Source: a virus. Taken from it: a DNA stretch of 49,446 nucleotides. The DNA lies in the IMG/VR virus record IMGVR_UViG_3300046542_000228, positions 1 through 49,446 of that record. One strand, given 5' to 3'. The notes under the pieces were generated by a model. The model worked only from the letters and a program-made list of their open reading frames with translations, made no database searches and had not been told where the DNA came from. Positions 1-48,255 of this stretch are shown here, piece by piece (the first letter of the stretch is position 1; each line of letters opens with the position of its first letter). The position numbers were made by a program, and so were the translations under genes.

Positions 1-767
1 CCGTGAAGGACTTCTGGGCGAACCTGGGCCGGAACCTGCGTCACCCTGCGATCAAGGATCTCGGCTACGTCATGGCGTACACCGAAGTGATCCACAACCA
101 GGCCTACGAGCGGCTGCTCGAGGTGCTCGGTCTGGAAGCAGTCTTCGAAGAGAACCTGAAAATCGATGTCGTTCGCGCCCGCGTGAACTATCTCCGGAAG
201 CATGCTCAGCGTGTCTACGAAGACGATCGCAAGCAGTACATCTATTCGATCATCCTGTTCACGCTCTTCGTCGAGAACGTCAGCCTCTTCAGCCAGTTCT
301 ACACGATCATGTGGTTCAACCGCTTCAAGAACGTCCTGAAGGATACGGCTCAGCAGGTTCAGTACACGAAGAACGAAGAGACCCTGCACGCCCAGATCGG
401 CATCAAGATCATCAACACGCTGCGTCAGGAATACCCGGATCTCTTCGACTTCGAGCTGACTGAGCGCATCCGCGAAGAGTGCCTAGAAGCCTTCAAGGCC
501 GAGAGCAATCTGATCGACTGGATGATTGGTGATTACGCCGACGAAAACATCAGCGCCGAGATCCTCAAGAACTACGTCTCCACTCGACTGCAGGACAGCC
601 TCAAGTCGATCGGCATCCGGTCGCCACTCACCGACTGGCCGATGATCGAGACGCTTTGGATGGATGAAGAAGTCTTCGGCACCAACAAGACCGATTTCTT
701 CCACAAGAACCCCGTCGACTACACCGAAAACGACGTCGCCTACGACCCGAAGGAACTATTCGCATGA
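1..767 (+). CDS. nrdB: Ribonucleotide reductase small (beta) subunit, 5' partial
   Basis: Class I ribonucleotide reductase radical-generating subunit, which partners NrdA to make deoxyribonucleotides in the cytoplasm. The frame is open to the left edge, so the N-terminus, including the first metal ligand, lies outside the window; a GTG at position 3 is unlikely to be the true start. Seen in the 255 visible residues: the E-x-x-H metal motif followed by a tyrosine four residues later (EVIHNQAY, matching E115/H118/Y122 of E. coli NrdB), the next helix glutamate in LFVENVS, and the second E-x-x-H in NEETLHAQIG. All visible ligands are intact, so the protein should be active. It overlaps nrdA by ATGA, indicating translational coupling. 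Confidence 0.93.
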   Translation, partial: VKDFWANLGRNLRHPAIKDLGYVMAYTEVIHNQAYERLLEVLGLEAVFEENLKIDVVRARVNYLRKHAQRVYEDDRKQYIYSIILFTLFVENVSLFSQFYTIMWFNRFKNVLKDTAQQVQYTKNEETLHAQIGIKIINTLRQEYPDLFDFELTERIREECLEAFKAESNLIDWMIGDYADENISAEILKNYVSTRLQDSLKSIGIRSPLTDWPMIETLWMDEEVFGTNKTDFFHKNPVDYTENDVAYDPKELFA

Positions 768-21873: not shown

Positions 21874-22074
21874 ATGCGTCGTCTTTCAACTAGCCTTCCG
21901 GACGAGTTATTTGCACTGCTTGAGGGCAGAGCAGAGATCAATCGTCGATCGATGAACAAGGAAGTCATCTTCCTTTTGGAGGCCGCGCTCGCTGCTGAGC
22001 ACGGCGATAATCTGGAGATCCTCCGGACTGTCATGATAGCCCAGGGTGGGCTATCGACTCTTAGCCCGCAGTGA
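21874..22074 (+). CDS. Arc-like ribbon-helix-helix DNA-binding protein
   Basis: 66 aa. MRRLSTSLPDELFALLEG forms the beta-strand and first helix, and RRSMNKEVIFLLEAALAAE the second helix with the N-x-E motif that defines Arc-family repressors; the rest is a short helical tail. It should dimerise and bind operator DNA in the major groove. It is on the plus strand inside the minus-strand tail operon, with its own promoter, GGTGGG ribosome site and a 14-bp convergent overlap with the tail-completion gene. Likely a late-gene or autoregulatory repressor. Confidence 0.87.
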   Translation: MRRLSTSLPDELFALLEGRAEINRRSMNKEVIFLLEAALAAEHGDNLEILRTVMIAQGGLSTLSPQ

Positions 22075-34503: not shown

Positions 34504-36273
34504 CTAGCGTATTCCGAGAGATGTGGGGCTTCTGCCCCCTCGCTGCAGCCCCAGCCGTGATGCGTTTTGAACCGGAACGACTACATTGGAAGCGGTGATC
34601 TGGGTGCGAGGATCCTCCTCGCGATAGTCGATCGCGGTGTGGACGCGGATGGCATAGAGCAGGTAGCCCAGCGAGTGGAAGAAGTGGTCGTTACCAGTCA
34701 GTTTCGCCCAGCGAGCCGGGATCTCATCCTTGGTCTTCTCGTTCACCTCGTTCTCGATACGCACCATGTCTTGCAGGTGGTCGAGGATGATACGCTCGAG
34801 GCGACCATAGCCGTAGAAGGAGACCTTCCGCTTGCGGATCGCGCCGGCCACGGTGTCGAGCATGGTCGTGCGGTTGCCGACCAGGTGTGAGAGCTGATCG
34901 AGCTCGTCCTTGACGAAGGTGACAGCCGCGGCGCCTGGTTGACCGGCGTACTGGACCGGCAGGATCCGACCGTTCGAGAGTTCACGGATTTCGTTCGCGA
35001 GCGGCGTGTATGGATTGCGGTCCATGCACCCGCCCACGACGTTGTAGGTCTCCAGGATCGTCTTGACCTCGTCATAGAGGTTGTCGGCCGACACCTGGCG
35101 GAAGCTAAAGACGACTGGGTTCGCCTGACCGACATTGGCCAGGGTGATGTGGCAGGTGAGACCCGCGTCGATTCCGATCATCACGGGCTCGAAATTGCCT
35201 ACGTCGGCCGAGCTCTCGCCTCTCATGACGGCGCGAATGTCGACCTCGCTGAGGCGAGCGCTGGCATCATTGTAGGCCTCGCCCAGCACCGTGTTGTACC
35301 AGCGGCGCAGCGCGTCACGCTTTTTGTACTTCAGCAGCTGGTCGACGATGTATTCCGGGTTCGCTATGCGGTGAACGCAGAAGGGAGAGACCCTGTAACC
35401 TCGGCTACGGCGCCCAGGAAAACGAGGCACCCAAGACCGCAACGAAGGATCAGCGGTATTAAGACGGCGTCCACAAGCCTCACATCGAACGAAGCCGGCT
35501 CTAAGGTCCAGCTTGTCAGCAAGTTCTGAATCGATTTCTGAAAGATCGTTGATGTCACTGGAGAGCCCTGGGATGCAGATGAATTTCGGCGTGAACTGCG
35601 GGATGTTGTAGTGATTGCACCCTTCGCACTTGAGGACGTACTCATGCTGGTCGGATGTCTGAAACCCCGCGTGGACCCCGTATCCTTCGAACGTGGGGGT
35701 CGAGAAGCTTTGTGTGATCTTGTAGTCAGAGCCTTGGAGACGTGACTGGTAGAGAGCCAGCATTTCCTGATCTGCGAGATCGATTTCGTCCTGGAAAAGC
35801 GCGTCGGCGTTGATCGAAGTGGCATCCGATTCCTTGCCCCCGGTGAAGAACCCGAATGACTGGTTGATCTGATAGAGGCCGACCGAGCGCACGGGCTTGT
35901 CGACGGACGCCATGTTGAAGACCGGCTCGTCGTTGATCAGCGGGCCGAAGCGCGTCTGGGACACGCGCTTGAACATCACGTCACTCGGTAGAGAGAAGAT
36001 CGCGTTGACGGCAGTGGTTCGGGCCAGGAAGCCCGCGAACTTGCGGAGCTGAACTTCGGTCAGACCGATTTGAGAACACTTGATGGTCCAGAGATCGGGA
36101 TGCATATCATCGACGATCTGTTGCTGGAACTCATAGCCCGCGAAACTGAACTGCTTCTTCCGGAGGTGGGTGTTCTTTATGATCCATTCGGACATCGACA
36201 TATTGATCGAGTCTTCCGCAAATCGCTGGCGCAGCTGTGATCGGAAGTCGGACAAATAGTCGTTGCGATACAT
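34504..36273 (-). CDS. terL: Terminase large subunit (lambda GpA-like)
   Basis: 589 aa DNA-packaging motor. ATPase: Walker A-like KCSQIGLTE (about 65-73) and Walker B ALFQDEID (about 158-165). Two CxxC pairs (CEGC and CEAC) form a zinc-like insertion before the nuclease domain, as in GpA-type enzymes. Nuclease acids: IGIDAGLT, CMDRNPY and TGNDHFFHSLGYLL. It is the first gene of the minus-strand block. No small subunit with a clear HTH is adjacent on the same strand. Confidence 0.92.
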   Translation of the reverse strand: MYRNDYLSDFRSQLRQRFAEDSINMSMSEWIIKNTHLRKKQFSFAGYEFQQQIVDDMHPDLWTIKCSQIGLTEVQLRKFAGFLARTTAVNAIFSLPSDVMFKRVSQTRFGPLINDEPVFNMASVDKPVRSVGLYQINQSFGFFTGGKESDATSINADALFQDEIDLADQEMLALYQSRLQGSDYKITQSFSTPTFEGYGVHAGFQTSDQHEYVLKCEGCNHYNIPQFTPKFICIPGLSSDINDLSEIDSELADKLDLRAGFVRCEACGRRLNTADPSLRSWVPRFPGRRSRGYRVSPFCVHRIANPEYIVDQLLKYKKRDALRRWYNTVLGEAYNDASARLSEVDIRAVMRGESSADVGNFEPVMIGIDAGLTCHITLANVGQANPVVFSFRQVSADNLYDEVKTILETYNVVGGCMDRNPYTPLANEIRELSNGRILPVQYAGQPGAAAVTFVKDELDQLSHLVGNRTTMLDTVAGAIRKRKVSFYGYGRLERIILDHLQDMVRIENEVNEKTKDEIPARWAKLTGNDHFFHSLGYLLYAIRVHTAIDYREEDPRTQITASNVVVPVQNASRLGLQRGGRSPTSLGIR

Positions 36274-36365
36274 GTAGTTGGCTATATGGGGAGCCGAGAC
36301 ATGATTTGCAAATCTGGTGAGACATTCGGAAATTTAGGTCTGAGTGTTGTCGCACGTCGTGCTTG

Positions 36366-36378
36366 AGTTCTTGGAACT
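36366..36378. promoter_or_regulatory. Palindromic operator-like site between terL and early genes
   Basis: AGTTCTTGGAACT lies in the 173-bp divergent intergenic region, flanked by an outer imperfect repeat (CACGTCGTGCTT and AAGCACGAGACGTG). It matches the AGTTCTAAGAACT palindrome found at 40429 and 43359 except for the central bases. It is placed to control terL and the replication genes together. Confidence 0.55.
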
Positions 36379-36446
36379 GAAGCACGAGACGTGTGGCCAA
36401 ACATGTCCCCATTTTCTACGTAAGCTCCAACAGAAACGGAGCAGAC

Positions 36447-36923
36447 ATGAACCCGAAATATTTCCCGAACATCAGCGAGGACCAAATTCTCCTCGTCAAT
36501 CGAGTGTTGCGGAGCATCGGAGAGAACCCCGATTACCTCTCACACCCTGATTGCCCCTACCCCATCACGGTCAGGGACTTCTTCACCAAGCAGGCTCGAG
36601 GCTCGCAGGCCGGCCAGGTGGAGGATCTCTTCGAAGGCGACCAGGTGGTGGCGATCGAGAAGCAGATCCAGCAGCTTATCAACGACCTGGAAGCCTACGG
36701 CAAGAGCCTCGGCGCCGACGATGCCTCCGAGAAGCTGCAGTATTTCAAGACGAAGAACTCGCTCCTCGAAAAGCTCCTCAACAACCTCGAGCGGGCAGCA
36801 AACCTCAAGCAGATCAACGAGTTCCGGCAGATCGTCATCCAGTTCATGGATGAAGTCCTCACCAAGGATCAGATCACCGATTTCATGAAGCGTATCGATG
36901 GAGTTCTCAGCAATGGTCGATAA
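36447..36923 (+). CDS. Coiled-coil protein upstream of primase-helicase
   Basis: 158 aa from ATG 36447, which has GGAG upstream; an earlier in-frame start lacks this. The protein is helical and charged, with IEKQIQQLINDLEAYGKSLG and LLEKLLNNLERAANLKQINE typical of coiled coils. It is the first plus-strand gene, divergent from terL, and overlaps the primase gene. It could be a terminase small subunit or a replication accessory factor, but no DNA-binding motif is visible, so function is open. Confidence 0.7.
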   Translation: MNPKYFPNISEDQILLVNRVLRSIGENPDYLSHPDCPYPITVRDFFTKQARGSQAGQVEDLFEGDQVVAIEKQIQQLINDLEAYGKSLGADDASEKLQYFKTKNSLLEKLLNNLERAANLKQINEFRQIVIQFMDEVLTKDQITDFMKRIDGVLSNGR

Positions 36924-39321
36924 GATTTTCGAAACCTACGCCCCGCTCTACTGGGCAGCAGGCCTCCCGGCCATCCCGCTCATCTACGAGAACAAGCGCC
37001 CCGCGATTCCGCGCTGGCAGATGTACTCGGACGCCTTCCCGACGAAGGAAGATCAGTCGAACTGGTTGACGGCTTTCGCTTCTGGCAACATCGGTCTGCC
37101 GATGGGTCCAGCTGCTGGTCTCGTCGCGATCGACATCGACTCCGAGGATCCGGTGGTCCTCCAGGTGCTCGAGCGCGTCCTGCCGCCGTCTCCGTGGCAT
37201 CGTGTCGGCCGCAAGGGTCGGGTGCAGATCTATCGTTGGTCGGGCGAGCGTACGGCTCGTATCAAGGCCGAAGATGGCACGATGATCTGCGAAATCCTGT
37301 CCAAGGGCACGCAGTTCGTTCTCCCGCCGTCGATCCACCCAGACACCAAGCAGCCCTACACGGCTGACGGCAACCTCTGGGAAATCGCCAAGAACGCTCC
37401 TCCCCTGCCGCTCGACTTCGAGCGTGTCCTGAAGGGCGCCCTCCGCGAGGCAGGCATCCAGGTCTCCTCGGGTGGCCAGAACAAGACCGTCAACTTCGTG
37501 CCGGCTGGTGCTCGTGACGCCACCATGGTCTGGCATGCCGGTCTGCTGGCTCGAGCCGTCCTTCGTGGGGAGCGTTCGCTCGTCCAGGCGCTCGGTGAGA
37601 TGGCTGCATGGGTCGAGAACTACGTCGAGAAAGTCGTGGGCGACCCCCTGTCGGTCGAGAAGGCTCAAGGCAAGATCGTCGAGTTCTTGGTCCGCGATGT
37701 GACGGGCGAGGCTCGCAAGGCCCTGCCGCTGGGTTGGGACGAGGGTCTGACCGAAGAGGATCTGCAGAAGCTCGGTCTGGCGTTCACCGATGACGACAAG
37801 AGCTGGTCTCCGCAGAAGATCATGGACTACGTGGCTCTCGAGTTCGAGCGTCATACGGATGTCCGTTCCGAGGGTCGCAGCAACGCGATCTCCGTCGCCT
37901 TGGACCGAATTGTTCGGACCAATCCGCCGCTCAGCCCGATCGACGAGGCGATCGTGCTCAAGTTCGTGGCCAACCAGGCACAGAACGGCCTGTCGGTCAC
38001 GGACCTGAAGCGCCAGCTGCAGACCCTTCGCCGCGGTGAGATCTTGGGTGAGACCCACGCCGAGCTCGCTGAGGCCTGCCTCACGTTCCTTCGCAAGTAT
38101 GGCGACGTCCGTTTCGACGCCTCGTCGTTCTGGCAGTGGCGCGGTGCTGCCTGGGTCAAGTGCCAGGAGCAGGAGCTGCTGAAGATCATCGCTGAAAACT
38201 ATGGTGCCTATCCGGCCGGCAAGCGCCAGAATGACCACAACGGCATCCTCAAGGTTATGAAGGCGATTGCCTCGGAGCCACTCCGGACTTCGTACGTCAA
38301 GGGCGTGAATTTCGCCAATGGTTATCTGACCGAGAAGCTCGAGCTGGTTCCGCATGCTCCGGAGTTCGGCATGACGTACACCCTGCCCTACCGGTACACC
38401 CCGGAGAAGGCTGGCCATATGCCGATGTTCGACCAGTTTCTGAACGATAGCTGGGCGACGGATCCGGACTATGGCGACAAACTGCTCGCTCTGCAGGAGA
38501 TGCTCGGTGTCTCGCTCATGGGTATGGCGCCCCGCTTCCAGATGGCGTTCCTCCTGTTCGGTCAGGCGGGTGCTGGCAAGTCGGTTCTCCAGGCCATCAT
38601 GCGGGGGCTGATGCCGAATGGCTCGTCGTCGGCAATCGTGCCGTCTGACTGGTCCGATCGGTTCCTGCCGGCCGAGATGTTCGGGAAGATCGTCAATTTC
38701 GCGGGTGAGCTGTCGGAAACGCGGCCGATCCCCGGGGATATTTTCAAGAAAGTGGTCTCCGGTGAAGAGATGCAGGTTCAGTTCAAGAACCAAAATCCCT
38801 TCGTTTTCATCCCGGAATGCGCCCACTGGTTCAACTCGAACCACCTGCCGAAGACACGGGACAGCTCCGAGGGCTTCAACCGTCGTTGGTTGATCCTGGA
38901 GTTCAATAATCGGATCAGCCCCGACAAGCGGGTCATCGATCTGGATGCCCAGATCCTCGAGCATGAACGTGAAGCGATCGTTGCCTGGGCGATCCAGGGT
39001 TACAAGCGCCTGGTCGAAGCTGGAAATTACACGCTTCCGACCTCGCACCTGGCTCTGGTCGACCAGATGGCGGCGGACAACAACTCGGTACGCCACTTCC
39101 TGTCGTCGAACGGCACGGGTCTGAAGTGGGGTGCCCAGCACGAAATCGCGCTGCCCGACATGCACACGCAGTATTGGCAGTTTTCGATCGCAACGGGCAA
39201 CGCCACTCGTGTGACGCTGACCAAATTCACGAAGCTGATGAAGGAGCTGTCGGGCACGTTCCCGTTCGACATCGAGATCCGGGGTCAGAATGAGCTTTAC
39301 TACTTGGGAGTTGGAATCTGA
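36913..39321 (+). CDS. Primase-polymerase / SF3 helicase (D5-like)
   Basis: 802 aa from ATG 36913 (GGAG nine bases upstream). N-terminal bifunctional primase-polymerase: IPLIYENKRPAIPRW, catalytic acids in VAIDIDSED (about 75), GTQFVLPPSIHP (about 135). The middle is a helical linker. The C-terminal D5/P4-type helicase has Walker A FGQAGAGKSVL (about 550), Walker B-like VNFAGELSE and motif C FIPECAHWFNSNHLP. Likely the replicative primase-helicase for phage DNA. The frame continues over the next small gene by TGATG. Confidence 0.92.
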   Translation: MVDKIFETYAPLYWAAGLPAIPLIYENKRPAIPRWQMYSDAFPTKEDQSNWLTAFASGNIGLPMGPAAGLVAIDIDSEDPVVLQVLERVLPPSPWHRVGRKGRVQIYRWSGERTARIKAEDGTMICEILSKGTQFVLPPSIHPDTKQPYTADGNLWEIAKNAPPLPLDFERVLKGALREAGIQVSSGGQNKTVNFVPAGARDATMVWHAGLLARAVLRGERSLVQALGEMAAWVENYVEKVVGDPLSVEKAQGKIVEFLVRDVTGEARKALPLGWDEGLTEEDLQKLGLAFTDDDKSWSPQKIMDYVALEFERHTDVRSEGRSNAISVALDRIVRTNPPLSPIDEAIVLKFVANQAQNGLSVTDLKRQLQTLRRGEILGETHAELAEACLTFLRKYGDVRFDASSFWQWRGAAWVKCQEQELLKIIAENYGAYPAGKRQNDHNGILKVMKAIASEPLRTSYVKGVNFANGYLTEKLELVPHAPEFGMTYTLPYRYTPEKAGHMPMFDQFLNDSWATDPDYGDKLLALQEMLGVSLMGMAPRFQMAFLLFGQAGAGKSVLQAIMRGLMPNGSSSAIVPSDWSDRFLPAEMFGKIVNFAGELSETRPIPGDIFKKVVSGEEMQVQFKNQNPFVFIPECAHWFNSNHLPKTRDSSEGFNRRWLILEFNNRISPDKRVIDLDAQILEHEREAIVAWAIQGYKRLVEAGNYTLPTSHLALVDQMAADNNSVRHFLSSNGTGLKWGAQHEIALPDMHTQYWQFSIATGNATRVTLTKFTKLMKELSGTFPFDIEIRGQNELYYLGVGI

Positions 39322-39449
39322 TGACTGGGCTTGGAAATCTTCTGTATTTTCTTCTGATCTGGGCCGCTATCGGCGCGGTTTTGTCTCTCGGAGGTGCGAT
39401 TTGGCTGGTTTTCTGGCTCGTGACCCACGTTTCGATGACGATTTCATAG
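39321..39449 (+). CDS. Tiny membrane protein (42 aa)
   Basis: Starts at ATG 39321 in a TGATG overlap with the primase-helicase stop. The sequence is almost wholly hydrophobic (LLYFLLIWAAIGAVLSLGG, then IWLVFWLV), so one long or two short membrane spans. No Cys or charged residues apart from a single His. It ends 7 bases before a terminator, making it the last gene of this operon. Role unknown; small membrane proteins of this kind can be involved in exclusion or lysis timing. Confidence 0.7.
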   Translation: MTGLGNLLYFLLIWAAIGAVLSLGGAIWLVFWLVTHVSMTIS

Positions 39450-39455
39450 TTAAAG

Positions 39456-39480
39456 ACGGCGCCTCTCAGGCGCCGTTTTT
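39456..39480 (+). terminator. Terminator after the primase-helicase operon
   Basis: Stem ACGGCGCC / GGCGCCGT with loop TCTCA and a T-tract. It closes the transcript carrying the primase-helicase and the 42-aa membrane protein. Confidence 0.88.
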
Positions 39481-39482
39481 CA

Positions 39483-39511
39483 TTGATGTTGTCCTCAACC
39501 TCGAATAATCA
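39483..39511 (+). promoter_or_regulatory. Candidate promoter for the glycosyltransferase gene
   Basis: TTGATG, 17-base spacer, TAATCA, immediately after the terminator and 29 bases before the GTG start of the glycosyltransferase. The fit is moderate. Confidence 0.35.
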
Positions 39512-39540
39512 CCCGCGGTGAATTGGAGCTTGAGAATACC

Positions 39541-40353
39541 GTGATAGTTGCGTGCGCAATCGATCGACGCTTTGCAGAATTGGCCGGCGTCATGATTTAT
39601 TCCCTAGAGTTGACTGGAGACATCCCCGAGGCTGATCTTTGGATCATCGGAGATGGCTTACGCCAGTCCGACAAGGACAAGATCCAGGCCTGTGCGAAAC
39701 GCAAAATCACATTCCACGACCTTGGTGCTGGTACGATACAACAACTCAAGGGCCTGAAAACTACCTCAAATTGGAGCCGAGTAGCCTACGCTCGCTTGTT
39801 CCTACCAGCTCTGATGCCGGCTGATCGCGGTAATTTGCTGTATCTGGATGCCGACACGATGATTAAGGGTAGTCTGCGGCCTCTGCAAGAAATGGATCTT
39901 TCAGGCAAGGTAATTGCCGCACTGGGTGGTCCCTCGAAGCACAATTTACCGATCGGCCGCGCTCAGGACGCTTTCTATTTCAACTCCGGTGTCGTGTTGC
40001 TCAATCTCAAGGAGTGGCAGCGCCAGGAACTTACGATAAAGGCGCTCGAGCTCCTGAAAAGCCAACCATTTGGCTTCCCCGACCAGGATGTGCTCAACCT
40101 GGTAGCAGAAGGTCAGACGGTAGCTCTCGAACCGAAGTGGAATTTCCAGCACGGAAAGGCATCGTCGGAAGAAGTGCGGATCGTCCATTTCACACACGCG
40201 AAGCCAAACACGACCTATTGCGTCCATCCCGACAAGGCGTTGTTCCTTGAGTATCGCTCGAAGACCCCGTGGGCAAATGTGCGGCTGAAGACCATGTGGG
40301 ATAAGCGGCTCAATCGTCTTCGTCACTCGGTTAAGCAGAAAATCGGTTTATAA
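39541..40353 (+). CDS. Family 8 glycosyltransferase
   Basis: 270 aa from GTG 39541, chosen because GT8 enzymes usually begin close to the first strand (MIVACAIDRRF); TTG 39523 would add six residues. Nucleotide-sugar/Mn binding DAD is in LLYLDADTM (about 103-105), followed by FNSGVVLLNLKEWQ, FPDQDVLN and HFTHAKPN, matching the GT8 order (glycogenin/LPS galactosyltransferase type). It could glycosylate phage DNA or modify host LPS. It is a stand-alone transcription unit with its own promoter candidate and terminator. Confidence 0.87.
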   Translation: MIVACAIDRRFAELAGVMIYSLELTGDIPEADLWIIGDGLRQSDKDKIQACAKRKITFHDLGAGTIQQLKGLKTTSNWSRVAYARLFLPALMPADRGNLLYLDADTMIKGSLRPLQEMDLSGKVIAALGGPSKHNLPIGRAQDAFYFNSGVVLLNLKEWQRQELTIKALELLKSQPFGFPDQDVLNLVAEGQTVALEPKWNFQHGKASSEEVRIVHFTHAKPNTTYCVHPDKALFLEYRSKTPWANVRLKTMWDKRLNRLRHSVKQKIGL

Positions 40354-40393
40354 ATCAGTTGGTTCTGGTCCTGGTTCGGGTTCTGAATCTCGC

Positions 40394-40420
40394 AAAAAGG
40401 CTCCTTCGGGGGCCTTTTTT
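40394..40420 (+). terminator. Terminator after the glycosyltransferase gene
   Basis: AAAAAGGCTCC, tetraloop TTCG and GGGGCCTTTTTT form a strong hairpin with one T-G wobble and U-tract. Confidence 0.88.
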
Positions 40421-40428
40421 CGTTTCTG

Positions 40429-40441
40429 AGTTCTAAGAACT
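40429..40441. promoter_or_regulatory. Operator palindrome AGTTCTAAGAACT
   Basis: Perfect 13-bp palindrome downstream of the glycosyltransferase terminator and upstream of the early-gene control region. The identical sequence occurs at 43359-43371 and close relatives at 36366 and 43263. Confidence 0.6.
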
Positions 40442-40614
40442 GGCACGATTCTGGTCTAGCGCCAGGTCCGTTCTCGGCAGTAGAGGTCCGTCAACGAAAC
40501 GAGCCGAGGATCATATGATAGCAGTCAGAAAAACGAAAAATTTCCCGGAGTTTTTCTGACCCTATTAGGCGGGAATAACGTAATAATATCAGATAATTAC
40601 GTGGTACCCTTCCT

Positions 40615-40643
40615 TTGTAGTCCGAGTAGTGACCCGTTAGATT
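40615..40643 (+). promoter_or_regulatory. Candidate promoter upstream of the early gene at 40807
   Basis: TTGTAG, 17-base spacer, TAGATT. The RNA would carry the GTGGCC hairpin and the three GC palindromes as its leader. Weak match to sigma70 consensus. Confidence 0.3.
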
Positions 40644-40725
40644 GATGACAGTTGATCGACAGATCGACGAGGCAAGTGGCCTTCGGGCCACGGGCTTGGG
40701 GGAGGACTGTGTCCTCTCTCCAAGT

Positions 40726-40789
40726 CTCCCCCACGGGGGAAGGTTCAACTCTCCCCCACGGGGGAAACAAACTCTCCCCCACGGGGGAA
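40726..40789. repeat. Three tandem CTCCCCCACGGGGGAA palindromes
   Basis: Identical 16-base units at 40726-40741, 40751-40766 and 40774-40789, each containing the perfect palindrome TCCCCC-AC-GGGGGA. They are spaced 25 and 23 bases apart, close to two helical turns, and fall in different reading frames, so they act as DNA or RNA elements, not as protein. The last copy is 17 bases from the start codon of the next gene. Confidence 0.85.
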
Positions 40790-40806
40790 CGGAAAGGGAA
40801 ACGGAA

Positions 40807-41553
40807 ATGACGGACACGGCAATCGAAACGGTCGCAACTGCAAAGGCCGCTGGATATCAGGCAGCAACGGTCGCCGCTCGCATCGCGGACATGGATCTTG
40901 ATGCAGCTGGCAACTCTGAGAAGGCAGCATGGAAGCGTTACTTGACGCTTGCCTTGCTCGCAATGGCGAAGAACGTAGATAAGAAGAAGCTTATCGAAGC
41001 GGTCTTCGGCAAGGGCGGCAAGCCTTCCAAGAACTTCCAGAACATGTGGTCGATTGCGGCGAACGCCCGCAACACGGTCCTTGGCAATCGCGACTGGGAT
41101 GACATCCGGTCGATGGCCATCGACGAAGCGATGGCGACGGTCCTCCTTTCCATCAACTCCCACATGTCACAGTTGGGGGTCTCGGCCAAGAACGACTATG
41201 CGGCAGTCTGCAATCTGTCGGTATCGGAAGCTGCCCGCTTCTTTGAGCAAAAGGCAGCGGACAAGGCAGCGGCCGATGCGGCGGCAGCAACGGAGAAGGC
41301 CGAGAAGGCCGAGACCGAAAAGACTGCCGAGACTGAGGCGCAAGCCAAGGCGACGGAGACGCCCGAACGGACTGCCGCTGAGGCAGCGATCGGTGCCCTT
41401 GCTGAGGCAGGGCAGGATGACTTGATGCAGGTTGCGGCCTTCATCGTCTCCAAGATCGAGGTTCCGAATATGATCCTGATCCGGGATGCGCTGGAGAACC
41501 TGATCGCCAACGCCGCCCGCACGGTCAACGGCCCTGCCGCCAACGCGGCCTAA
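40807..41553 (+). CDS. Hypothetical early protein with charged linker
   Basis: 248 aa from ATG 40807. The in-frame extension upstream runs through the three palindromes, each in a different frame, so it is not coding. The N-terminal half is globular and helical (WKRYLTLALLAMAKNVDKKK). Then comes an Ala/Glu/Lys/Thr low-complexity linker (about residues 155-195) and a short C-terminal helical domain (IEVPNMILIRDALENLI). Family not recognised. Its unusual leader suggests tight control and possibly high expression. Confidence 0.8.
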   Translation: MTDTAIETVATAKAAGYQAATVAARIADMDLDAAGNSEKAAWKRYLTLALLAMAKNVDKKKLIEAVFGKGGKPSKNFQNMWSIAANARNTVLGNRDWDDIRSMAIDEAMATVLLSINSHMSQLGVSAKNDYAAVCNLSVSEAARFFEQKAADKAAADAAAATEKAEKAETEKTAETEAQAKATETPERTAAEAAIGALAEAGQDDLMQVAAFIVSKIEVPNMILIRDALENLIANAARTVNGPAANAA

Positions 41554-41632
41554 GCCACCCCCATCACACGACGTCACGTCACGGCCCTGCCACCAAGGCG
41601 GGACCGTGACCACATGCACAACCGCGCGTATG

Positions 41633-41646
41633 CACAGGTACCTGTG
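41633..41646. promoter_or_regulatory. Perfect 14-bp palindrome CACAGGTACCTGTG
   Basis: Lies 57 bases upstream of the next start codon in a 149-base gap. Flanks TG and TGCA make it look like an operator, but no partner copy was found elsewhere. Confidence 0.4.
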
Positions 41647-41702
41647 TGCACCACGTAGACGCGAGAACCAACTCCAAAAAGCGCGAAGGAAGGCGTTTGG
41701 AA

Positions 41703-42110
41703 ATGATCCGTGAAACGACAAACCCGAAATACCACCAGCCCGCTCAACATTCGGGTCGGGTCCGGATGCTGCCCGACAGGCCAGCGGCCCAGATCTACGA
41801 CGGTGACTTCGTGAGCGCCGGTTCGCGGGACATGTCCAAGGGCAAGCCTCAAGAACCATTCGTCGATCGCAAGCCTCATGAGGCCCCGAGCCGCGAACCT
41901 GAGCCAAAATCACGGCCCAGCGGATCGAGCATGTGGATCGCGGATGAAGCGCCAGATGCGCCACTCTGGCTCGTGAAGGACAGAACCACGGGTCATGTGT
42001 TTGCTCGGGTTCGCGGCTCCCTTCCTTGGATAGTGGATCAAACGAAGCTACTCGCCGGCCAGCTTGGTGGGCAGGTAAATGAACTTTACTATCAAAGGAC
42101 GCGGTCATGA
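41703..42110 (+). CDS. Hypothetical early protein
   Basis: 135 aa from ATG 41703 (GGAAGG upstream). The first ~80 residues are polar, rich in Pro, Arg and Glu and probably disordered (RKPHEAPSREPEPKSRPSG). The C-terminal 50 residues look folded (SMWIADEAPDAPLWLVKDRT). Unrecognised. Overlaps the HNH reading frame (ATGA). Confidence 0.65.
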   Translation: MIRETTNPKYHQPAQHSGRVRMLPDRPAAQIYDGDFVSAGSRDMSKGKPQEPFVDRKPHEAPSREPEPKSRPSGSSMWIADEAPDAPLWLVKDRTTGHVFARVRGSLPWIVDQTKLLAGQLGGQVNELYYQRTRS

Positions 42111-42646
42111 TTGGTGAAACTTTCACACGTCTTACGGTGGTGTCTTACTCTCACAAAGCCCCCAATGGCGCGAAGCACTACAGATGACAGTGTAGTTGCG
42201 GAAATTTTCGCACGGTGGCTGGGAGCCACCTGAGGGTAGGCAACACCAAAAGCTGTGGGTGTCTACCTAAAGGCGGGAGTCTTCCAAAGCTGGCTCCAAT
42301 CGAGGCATCGATCAATGATGTCTTTCAGACCATGCGGTACGCCGCCAGTGTTCGTGGTTTGTCCTGGGAACTGGATCGAAGCACAGTTGCGGCTCTGATC
42401 TTGGAGCCTTGCCATTATTGCGGAATAGTCGGCACAAACAACCGCAAGAAACGAAGTCTGAGCCTGAACTACAACGGTATCGATCGTGTTGACAATACTC
42501 GGGGCTATGAACCTGGGAACGTCGTGACGTGTTGCGCAATCTGCAACAGAGCAAAACAAACCATGGGTTATGACGCGTTCGTTACCTGGACCGCAGCCAT
42601 AGCCCGTCATTATTTTTCACAAAACTCAAGGGCGAGGGAAAATTGA
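42107..42646 (+). pseudogene. HNH endonuclease gene interrupted by an in-frame TGA
   Basis: Read as one frame, the 5' part MIGETFTRLTVVSYSH and the part after a TGA (QCSCGNFRTVAGSHLRVG, then NTKSCGCL) together form the zinc-binding N-terminal domain common in phage HNH/AP2-type endonucleases (G-x-x-F-x-R-L-T-V ... C-x-C-x-CG ... S-CGCL). The TGA at 42185-42187 sits exactly where the first cysteine is expected, so TGC/TGT has become TGA. The C-terminal HNH domain is intact. Either a nonsense mutation, a recoded codon or a sequencing error. Confidence 0.7.
42215..42646 (+). CDS. HNH endonuclease, C-terminal translatable part
   Basis: 143 aa if translation restarts at GTG 42215. It keeps the tail of the zinc domain (SCGCL) and the complete HNH: CHYCGIVG, then GIDRVDNTRGYEPGNVVTCC, ICNRAKQTMGYDAF, including the His/Asp-Asn core and two CxxC zinc pairs. 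Likely a nicking or homing-type endonuclease. The restart has only a weak ribosome site, so expression is uncertain. The stop overlaps the next gene. Confidence 0.7.
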   Translation: MAGSHLRVGNTKSCGCLPKGGSLPKLAPIEASINDVFQTMRYAASVRGLSWELDRSTVAALILEPCHYCGIVGTNNRKKRSLSLNYNGIDRVDNTRGYEPGNVVTCCAICNRAKQTMGYDAFVTWTAAIARHYFSQNSRAREN

Positions 42647-42867
42647 TGTTTATGAATACATACCAGCATGGATACCAGGATGCGATCCGGGGTCATGCGC
42701 CGTTTTATCGCGAACCGAGCGACGAATACATGGAGGGCTACCGCAAGGGTGGCCGCTACCGTGCCACCGATCGCATGATGCAGCTCATTGCCCTCGGCGC
42801 ACTGGCCGTGGTCATGGGTGGCGTCGTCACCACGTGGATCGCCCAGGGTGTGGCGGTGGCCGTATGA
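42646..42867 (+). CDS. Small single-span membrane protein
   Basis: 73 aa from ATG 42646 (TGATG, GAGGG upstream). The first half is polar with tyrosines and glycines (YQHGYQDAIRGHAPFYREPS), the second half a transmembrane helix (LIALGALAVVMGGVVTTWIA). Cytoplasmic N-terminus predicted from charge. Unknown role, probably host takeover or exclusion. Confidence 0.7.
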   Translation: MFMNTYQHGYQDAIRGHAPFYREPSDEYMEGYRKGGRYRATDRMMQLIALGALAVVMGGVVTTWIAQGVAVAV

Positions 42868-43064
42868 CAGAGTTTTGGTACCTCGACACCGCCGGTCGGG
42901 TTCTAGGCTCGTTGCAGGCATTCTCATTCCGCGATGCCCATGCATGGCTCAGCCTGCAGGGCGTTGCATACGACAAGGTCACGAAGTTCCGGCCTCGGAT
43001 CCGCAAGGGTCGCGAGCGTCGGATCGAAAAGCGTACCAGAAGGTACGGGGAACTCGCGCTATGA
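42864..43064 (+). CDS. Small basic early protein
   Basis: 66 aa, ATGA overlap. An aromatic N-terminus (MTEFWYLDTAGRVLGSLQAF) and a highly basic C-terminus (RPRIRKGRERRIEKRTRRYG), which suggests nucleic-acid or ribosome binding. Not recognised. Confidence 0.65.
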   Translation: MTEFWYLDTAGRVLGSLQAFSFRDAHAWLSLQGVAYDKVTKFRPRIRKGRERRIEKRTRRYGELAL

Positions 43065-43240
43065 AGCTCTACGCAATTGTGAGGGATGGCTTTCCGGCTG
43101 GTCTTAGAACCAGCCGCGAGCTTTCGGACCTGAACCGGAACCGGGATCGTGTGGTTGAGATCCGGGTCTCGTTGCTCGGTCTTATCTGGGACCATGTTGT
43201 GTGGTCTTTGGGTCAGGCTCTGGTTCGGGTCCGCAGTTGA
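43061..43240 (+). CDS. Small early protein
   Basis: 59 aa from ATG 43061 (ATGA overlap). MKLYAIVRDGFPAGLRTSRE with a charged middle and hydrophobic end (LLGLIWDHVVWSLGQALV). Last gene of a four-gene run joined by overlaps; a gene-free control region follows. Unknown function. Confidence 0.65.
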   Translation: MKLYAIVRDGFPAGLRTSRELSDLNRNRDRVVEIRVSLLGLIWDHVVWSLGQALVRVRS

Positions 43241-43254
43241 CCAGCAGGTGGTTG

Positions 43255-43275
43255 GAACTCTGAGTTCTAGGAACC
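43255..43275. promoter_or_regulatory. Two overlapping operator palindromes
   Basis: GAACTCTGAGTTC is a perfect 13-bp palindrome; its right half begins a second, near-perfect one, AGTTCTAGGAACC. Both share the AGTTC/GAACT half-site with sites at 36366, 40429 and 43359. Confidence 0.55.
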
Positions 43276-43358
43276 CAGCTCAGCTCAGATGTTAGAGTTG
43301 GTCTTCCTATTTTATATTCTTCTTTCTTCTTCTACTTTACTCTAGGGAAGAAAAAATA

Positions 43359-43371
43359 AGTTCTAAGAACT
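43359..43371. promoter_or_regulatory. Operator palindrome AGTTCTAAGAACT
   Basis: Exact copy of the site at 40429-40441, directly downstream of the AT-rich promoter-like stretch and 209 bases before the next start codon. Confidence 0.6.
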
Positions 43372-43579
43372 AAGAAGAGAGTAAGGAAACCAAACGCCCT
43401 CAAAAACGGGGACGTTTCGATCACCCGTGTGGCCACAGAGGGCCGCTGACGAGCATGGCTCTCCGCGTGGTGCATTCCCTTCGACAACCCTCAAAACCGC
43501 GCTGGTGACTCGCCCTGAGTCAACCAGCACGCATCCGAACCAGATCCTGATCCGCGATCTGCGATCGGTGGAGAAAATC

Positions 43580-48138: not shown

Positions 48139-48255
48139 ATGGAAGAGCACTCCAAACCCTCCCCTATCGGGGAGGACGATCCCGCATACTACTACTACCT
48201 CGACGAGTTCGACGAGGTCGACATCAACGATGTGTTGAGGAGCCTGAACGCATGA
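48139..48255 (+). CDS. Tiny acidic protein (38 aa)
   Basis: Starts at ATG 48139 after an AAAGG ribosome site and ends in ATGA overlap with the next gene. Very acidic (GEDDPAYYYYLDEFDEVDI), 11 Asp or Glu in the middle, pI very low. Could be a nucleic-acid-mimicking inhibitor such as DNA-mimic anti-restriction proteins, but size and lack of homology leave this as a guess. Confidence 0.6.
   Translation: MEEHSKPSPIGEDDPAYYYYLDEFDEVDINDVLRSLNA

Follow-up and report, generated by a model that had tools for sequence, protein, structure and literature searches.

Related phages of 80-82 kb carry palindromic sites at eight conserved positions, upstream of early operons, and the sequence of the whole set changes in concert between genomes. 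The initial annotation of one fragment of such a phage took its palindromes for the regulon of a phage-encoded repressor. The first half of this reading, that the palindromes are operators of a regulator encoded by the phage and not of LexA, is well supported by the eight conserved sites, their top ranks in genome scans and the switching of site type; repression itself is likely only. The explanation that we favour as a whole, with some reserve, is a homodimeric phage regulator that would act as a repressor and whose operators would have been switched under the pressure of immunity.

Palindromes in the window

The window, i.e. the whole stretch of 49,446 bp that was analysed, is a fragment of a phage of about 80.5 kb. 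Both perfect copies of AGTTCTAAGAACT reported for it are found, at 40429-40441 and 43359-43371, as are the two close relatives, AGTTCTTGGAACT at 36366 and AGTTCTAGGAACC at 43263 (Table 1). The pattern GTTC-N3-GAAC is matched exactly only four times over the 49,446 bp; each match is one of the reported copies and each is intergenic, as had been claimed. An overlapping palindrome of the form GAAC-N5-GTTC, GAACTCTGAGTTC at 43255, is also present, but it is absent from the same place in the nearest relative and for lack of this conservation it was dropped and not counted as a site.

With up to three mismatches allowed, the 13-mer has 13 matches in the window against 6.0 ± 2.5 in shuffled sequences, and one shuffle in 100 reaches 13. 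When every possible palindrome is allowed for, the enrichment in the window alone is modest, and the motif falls outside the five most enriched palindromes. Relatives were sought because of this moderate enrichment, and the decisive support for the palindrome is comparative, the four window sites being found at the same four places in related genomes. An exact 18-bp extension of site 4 had no match in viral contigs, and no RNA families were found in the window.

Table 1. Positions in the window of the sites, their associated elements and the genes discussed in the text
Feature	Position	Strand	Remarks
Arc-like ribbon-helix-helix protein	21874..22074	+	Antisense within late genes; alternative candidate regulator
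Terminase large subunit (terL)	34504..36273	-	Divergent from site 1
Site 1, GAGTTCTTGGAACTG	36365..36379	.	Between terL (leftward) and gene 1 and primase (rightward); same place in A1, B, C and D, with type-specific sequence
Invariant T of site 1	36394..36394	+	22 bp from site centre
Gene 1	36447..36923	+	First gene behind site 1; PHROG 30421, function not known
Primase-polymerase/helicase (Prim-Pol, D5_N)	36913..39321	+	Behind site 1
Site 2, GAGTTCTAAGAACTG	40428..40442	.	Follows directly on the terminator that lies past the glycosyltransferase gene; the candidate regulator gene starts about 365 bp further on
Invariant T of site 2	40457..40457	+	22 bp from site centre
Leader element	40514..40610	+	Between site 2 and candidate regulator; nearly identical across types
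Site-2 protein, candidate regulator	40807..41553	+	248 aa, no known family; predicted all-helical domain, possible helix-turn-helix, variable third helix
Site 3, GAGTTCTAGGAACCC	43262..43276	.	Upstream of the small-gene array
AT-rich, pyrimidine-rich stretch	43277..43357	.	Separates sites 3 and 4; resembles its counterparts in all relatives despite the change of sites
Site 4, AAGTTCTAAGAACTA	43358..43372	.	96 bp centre to centre from site 3

Related phages and their probable way of life

Relatives were collected through searches with TerL and primase and measure 80-82 kb. They comprise A1 (complete, 80,553 bp; TerL 95%), B (81,516 bp; TerL 82%), C (80,450 bp; primase 80%), D (82,442 bp; primase 80%) and E (81,816 bp; primase 51%). 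Independent lineages among them are few, A1 being close to the other type A records and the genome L040 to D, and the gene calls in the relatives are mechanical. Genomes B and D have a 127-bp direct repeat at their ends. The taxon numbers of C and E are of the isolate type in the IMG numbering, which we take to suggest an origin in sequenced bacterial isolates.

Remoter relatives include Caulobacter phage Seuss, Achromobacter phages JWF and 2-1, Xylophilus phage Lumi, Acinetobacter phages and the Methylobacterium plasmid pMaq22A_3p, on which phage structural genes are found; a related region is also contained in a Rhizobiaceae chromosome. A megablast search of the region against annotated phages gave no matches. 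A gene for ParA together with a gene for a small partner of 95 aa was found in A1, B and C. From this gene pair, the related phage-like plasmid of Methylobacterium and the related chromosomal region of Rhizobiaceae we infer a temperate, plasmid-type phage of Rhizobiales.

Eight sites that change type together

The initial annotation had proposed a motif scan of the complete phage genome and expected enrichment in intergenic regions. Such a scan of A1 yields eight sites, seven of them intergenic. Four match the window sites in place and the other four belong to the portion not covered by the fragment. Genomes B, C and D likewise carry a site at each of these eight places, but their palindromes are different: the consensus is GAGTTCTnAGAACTC for type A, GAGTAnnnnnTACTC for type B, GAGTACAcTGTACTC for type C and GAGTACAcTaTACTC for type D. 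The outer frame GAGT-N7-ACTC is common to the four sequences, and the inner part reads TCTnAGA, AnnnnnT, ACAcTGT and ACAcTaT, respectively.

When a genome of about 80 kb is scanned with the matrix of its own sites, the eight sites take ranks 1-8 in A1, B and C and make up eight of the top nine in D. Each matrix was built from the sites that it ranks; leave-one-out scores remain high. The A1 matrix ranks the four sites of the window 1-4. Applied across types, the A matrix scores 18-26 at type A sites vs -18 to +7 at the sites of B, C and D, in whose genomes it finds nothing, and it is in this cross-matrix scan that the whole set of sites is seen to differ together between related phages. The matrices of B, C and D overlap more among themselves, which their common half-site AGTA would suggest. 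In de novo palindrome searches, the top-ranking palindrome of B was GAGTA-N5-TACTC, with 7 copies against 0.02 expected, and that of D was AGTA-N5-TACT, with 7 copies against 0.16 expected.

Among the genes behind the sites are those for primase, exonuclease, polymerase, ligase, Holliday resolvase and a RecN-like protein. In the relatives, site 5 is upstream of the gene for an NMT1-like binding protein, site 6 of an exonuclease-polymerase-ligase operon, site 7 of the Holliday resolvase gene, and site 8 of the gene for a small protein with a Fis-like helix-turn-helix that is followed by nucleotide-metabolism genes. Site 8 is the one exception to the intergenic location; it lies in the 3´ part of the RecN-like gene and, though coding, takes the type-specific form by means of different codons. 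The 96-bp spacing of sites 3 and 4 recurs in A1, B and C and is 99 bp in D.

A T at a fixed distance from the sites

The sites are palindromic, not asymmetric, and the only cue to their orientation is a T at +22 in six of the eight. At sites 1, 2 and 5-8, this T lies exactly 22 bp from the centre in all 24 sequences from A1, B, C and D, and random shifting of the sites reproduced it in none of 2,000 trials. It is absent at site 3 and present at site 4 in two of five sequences. Positions +45 to +49 are conserved as well, though less strongly. A search for sigma-70 promoters gave no consensus match at the sites of the window, and a broader scan of the relatives none that was consistent.

The fixed +22 geometry is otherwise unexplained and would also suit an activator, i.e. 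a phage-encoded protein that would bind the palindrome and bring RNA polymerase to weak early or middle promoters downstream of it, in the manner of Ogr of phage P2. In the P2 Ogr/P4 delta system, the promoters have weak -35 boxes and are preceded, at a fixed distance, by a dyad site. The dyad and the fixed-distance geometry are shared with our sites, six of which keep the distance in four genomes, and the conservation at +45 to +49 would leave a 17-bp spacer between two promoter-like boxes; the missing consensus promoter points the same way. However, the +45 element has no significance on its own, the T is missing from sites 3 and 4 (except in the two site 4 sequences), and the putative -10 element of site 7 would fall almost on the start codon. 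Moreover, a zinc-finger protein of the Ogr type was not found in the scanned regions, and concerted change of specificity is better known from immunity repressors. We consider activation unlikely, if by no means negligible.

A phage-encoded repressor as the preferred model

In the model that we prefer, a phage-encoded, homodimeric DNA-binding protein would recognise the palindromes as operators. The eight operators would head early units for replication, recombination, nucleotide metabolism and small genes in a phage of about 80 kb that is probably temperate and maintained as a plasmid. In the lysogen, the protein would most likely be bound at all eight operators and keep the early operons off, and it would control its own gene as well, if this is the one behind site 2. 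In related phages, the specificity of the regulator and all eight operators would have been switched in concert, as in heteroimmune phages. That a single phage-encoded protein binds all eight sites, that it represses and that immunity has driven the change of specificity is what we infer from the comparison of genomes. An immunity repressor is favoured because the early operons would be controlled as a set, because the phage is probably temperate and plasmid-like, because autoregulation may occur and because the specificity changes in concert; on these grounds we think it reasonably probable that the regulator is a repressor.

Dispersed palindromes serve as centromeres in plasmid prophages, and the small partner of ParA might bind the eight sites in this capacity, as with the dispersed centromere sites of phage N15. 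The presence of both genes in A1, B and C would agree with such a role. The partner, which has no Pfam match and appears to be a ribbon-helix-helix protein, has a putative DNA-contact strand, NLNIRPP, that is identical in A, B and C though their sites differ. In addition, the parAB genes have no adjacent cluster of sites, and the sites head operons instead, which makes a partition centromere very improbable. Even less credence can be given to RNA-level elements, in which the repeats would act as hairpins or terminators instead of protein sites. At sites 1 and 7 the palindrome forms the top of a longer inverted repeat, but most sites are without the longer stem, and a hairpin has no need of identical letters at eight places in one genome and of different ones in the next. 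Finally, a host-encoded regulator acting at phage promoters is hardly conceivable: the type A half-site GTTC is similar to that of alphaproteobacterial LexA, but the corresponding places in types B, C and D are without GTTC, and GTTC-N7-GTTC occurs at none of the sites, its spacing (as noted in the initial annotation) and its orientation both being absent, so that LexA is ruled out by the sequence of the sites.

Candidate genes for the regulator

The least certain part of the repressor model is the gene that encodes the regulator. The best candidate, at somewhat below an even chance, is the protein encoded behind site 2. It had no significant matches in Pfam, PHROG or NCBIfam. It is 92-93% identical within type A; between types, identity is only about 45-63%, according to which stretch is aligned, and most neighbouring genes are at 70-85%. 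A model of the N-terminal 162 residues from an alignment of six relatives reached a pLDDT of 87.7 and a pTM of 0.79 and has helices at residues 49-57 and 65-77; this domain possibly contains a helix-turn-helix. The full-length model is poor (pLDDT 49.9). A Foldseek search with the domain model gave no significant matches and several weak ones to phage DnaA C-terminal-like proteins. In phages with the same sites, the putative recognition segment is more conserved than the rest of the domain (fraction identical 0.93 vs 0.65 for D and L040, 0.87 vs 0.54 for E and F), and between types it is 0.60-0.73 identical. The value for C and D is 0.60 despite their similar operators, which weakens the case for the site-2 protein.

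There is a smaller, though appreciable, chance that the regulator is something other than the site-2, Arc-like and Fis-like proteins. Classical phage repressor domains did not turn up in genome B among those plus-strand reading frames outside the polymerase stretch that were scanned. The Arc-like protein, of a kind for which the initial annotation had proposed a binding test, belongs to the Arc family by its Pfam score (PF03869, 24.5 bits vs a cut-off of 20.4) and is encoded at a comparable antisense position among late genes in the relatives, Achromobacter phage JWF and a Methylobacterium plasmid. An Arc-like protein would invite comparison with Arc of phage P22 and other ribbon-helix-helix repressors. 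Yet its putative DNA-contacting strand does not vary between types A and B as their sites do, and this weakens its candidacy to the point where we regard it as rather unlikely. Neither of these main candidates tracks operator type perfectly. For the protein encoded behind site 8, the Fis-like match is below threshold and the identity between A and B is 78%; it appears the most doubtful of the three.

If the site-specific protein has a DNA-binding domain of no recognised family, the phages may possess a new family of immunity regulators with eight fixed operators, all of which would have been rewritten repeatedly along with changes in regulator specificity; this we propose tentatively.

Comparison with known immunity systems

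The nearest precedent, by analogy, is found in the Cluster A mycobacteriophages. Their repressor sites are dispersed and mostly intergenic, their consensus differs between heteroimmune phages, and site changes accompany changes in the helix-turn-helix of the repressor (PMC3029335; PMC6550527). Like the stoperators of Cluster A phages L5 and Bxb1, the sites described here are dispersed, mostly intergenic and of lineage-specific consensus. Unlike stoperators, which are asymmetric sequences of 13 bp and number 24 in L5 and 34 in Bxb1, they are eight palindromes of 15 bp at fixed positions; the phages are unrelated and the candidate regulator is in no known family. A second parallel is the plasmid prophage P1, in which the C1 repressor acts at many separate operons, replication included. 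This breadth of control and the plasmid state would be shared, whereas the operators of P1 are asymmetric 17-bp sequences.

How repressor specificity changes when many operators must change together is a long-standing question, and three finished outcomes in one layout are available here. The regulon is small and countable, with eight sites, at least three specificities and fixed positions, such that co-evolution of regulator and operators may be read from sequence, and this in phages distant from lambda and the mycobacteriophages. The phage group spans phage-like plasmids of Alphaproteobacteria and phages of Caulobacter, Achromobacter and Acinetobacter.

Other repeated motifs occur in the remoter members of the group. 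Several of the eight places in E and F are occupied by copies of a different motif, CTAGAGTA, mostly without the T at +22; this set is too loosely defined for a count. De novo searches returned GTTCG-N3-CGAAC in JWF, with 12 copies (two of which, at the genome ends, duplicate others), and GTACG-N3-CGTAC in pMaq22A_3p, with 14 copies. The palindromes of JWF and pMaq22A_3p are nearer to start codons than the eight-site set and need not belong to the same system.

Elements flanking the predicted operators

The interval between site 2, one of the palindromic predicted operators, and the candidate regulator gene downstream of it (the site-2 gene) holds a leader element that is nearly identical across all operator types and, in the window copy, includes a long inverted repeat. 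GC-rich hairpins lie in the leader of the site-2 gene, and in the relatives A1, C and D their motif is found around the site-2 gene and in a few places elsewhere. The stretch between sites 3 and 4 is present in all types at almost constant length; it may serve as a promoter or as an origin. Immediately upstream of site 3, D carries GGTTCG hexamers in tandem, of which the other genomes have shorter versions.

Coordinates of the features in the window
Feature	Position	Description
Arc-like gene	21874-22074	Antisense to surrounding late genes
Glycosyltransferase family 8 gene	39523-40353	Between primase and site 2
Leader element	40514-40610	TATGATAGCAGTC...TCTGACCC...GTGGTACCC; between site 2 and site-2 gene
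GC-rich hairpins (n=3)	40727-40790	CTCCCCCACGGGGGA; site-2 gene leader; also at 48160
Site 3-site 4 interval	43277-43357	AT-rich and pyrimidine-rich

The slot between the primase gene and site 2 is a cargo site; relatives have genes other than the glycosyltransferase there, or leave it empty. Fragments corresponding to the C-terminal 73-88 residues of the primase occur in the genomes of Rhizobium sp. BK196 and Neorhizobium vignae, and are possibly relics or attachment scars.

Among the more distant relatives, E and F repeat the motif CTAGAGTA at several control positions matching those described here. The Achromobacter phage JWF has one dispersed palindrome set, GGTTCGTnACGAACC, and the Methylobacterium plasmid pMaq22A_3p, which bears phage structural genes, has two further sets, GTACG-N3-CGTAC and CATAT-N3-ATATG, many of these palindromes lying near start codons of small early genes. 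The Arc-like gene of the window has counterparts in JWF and pMaq22A_3p.
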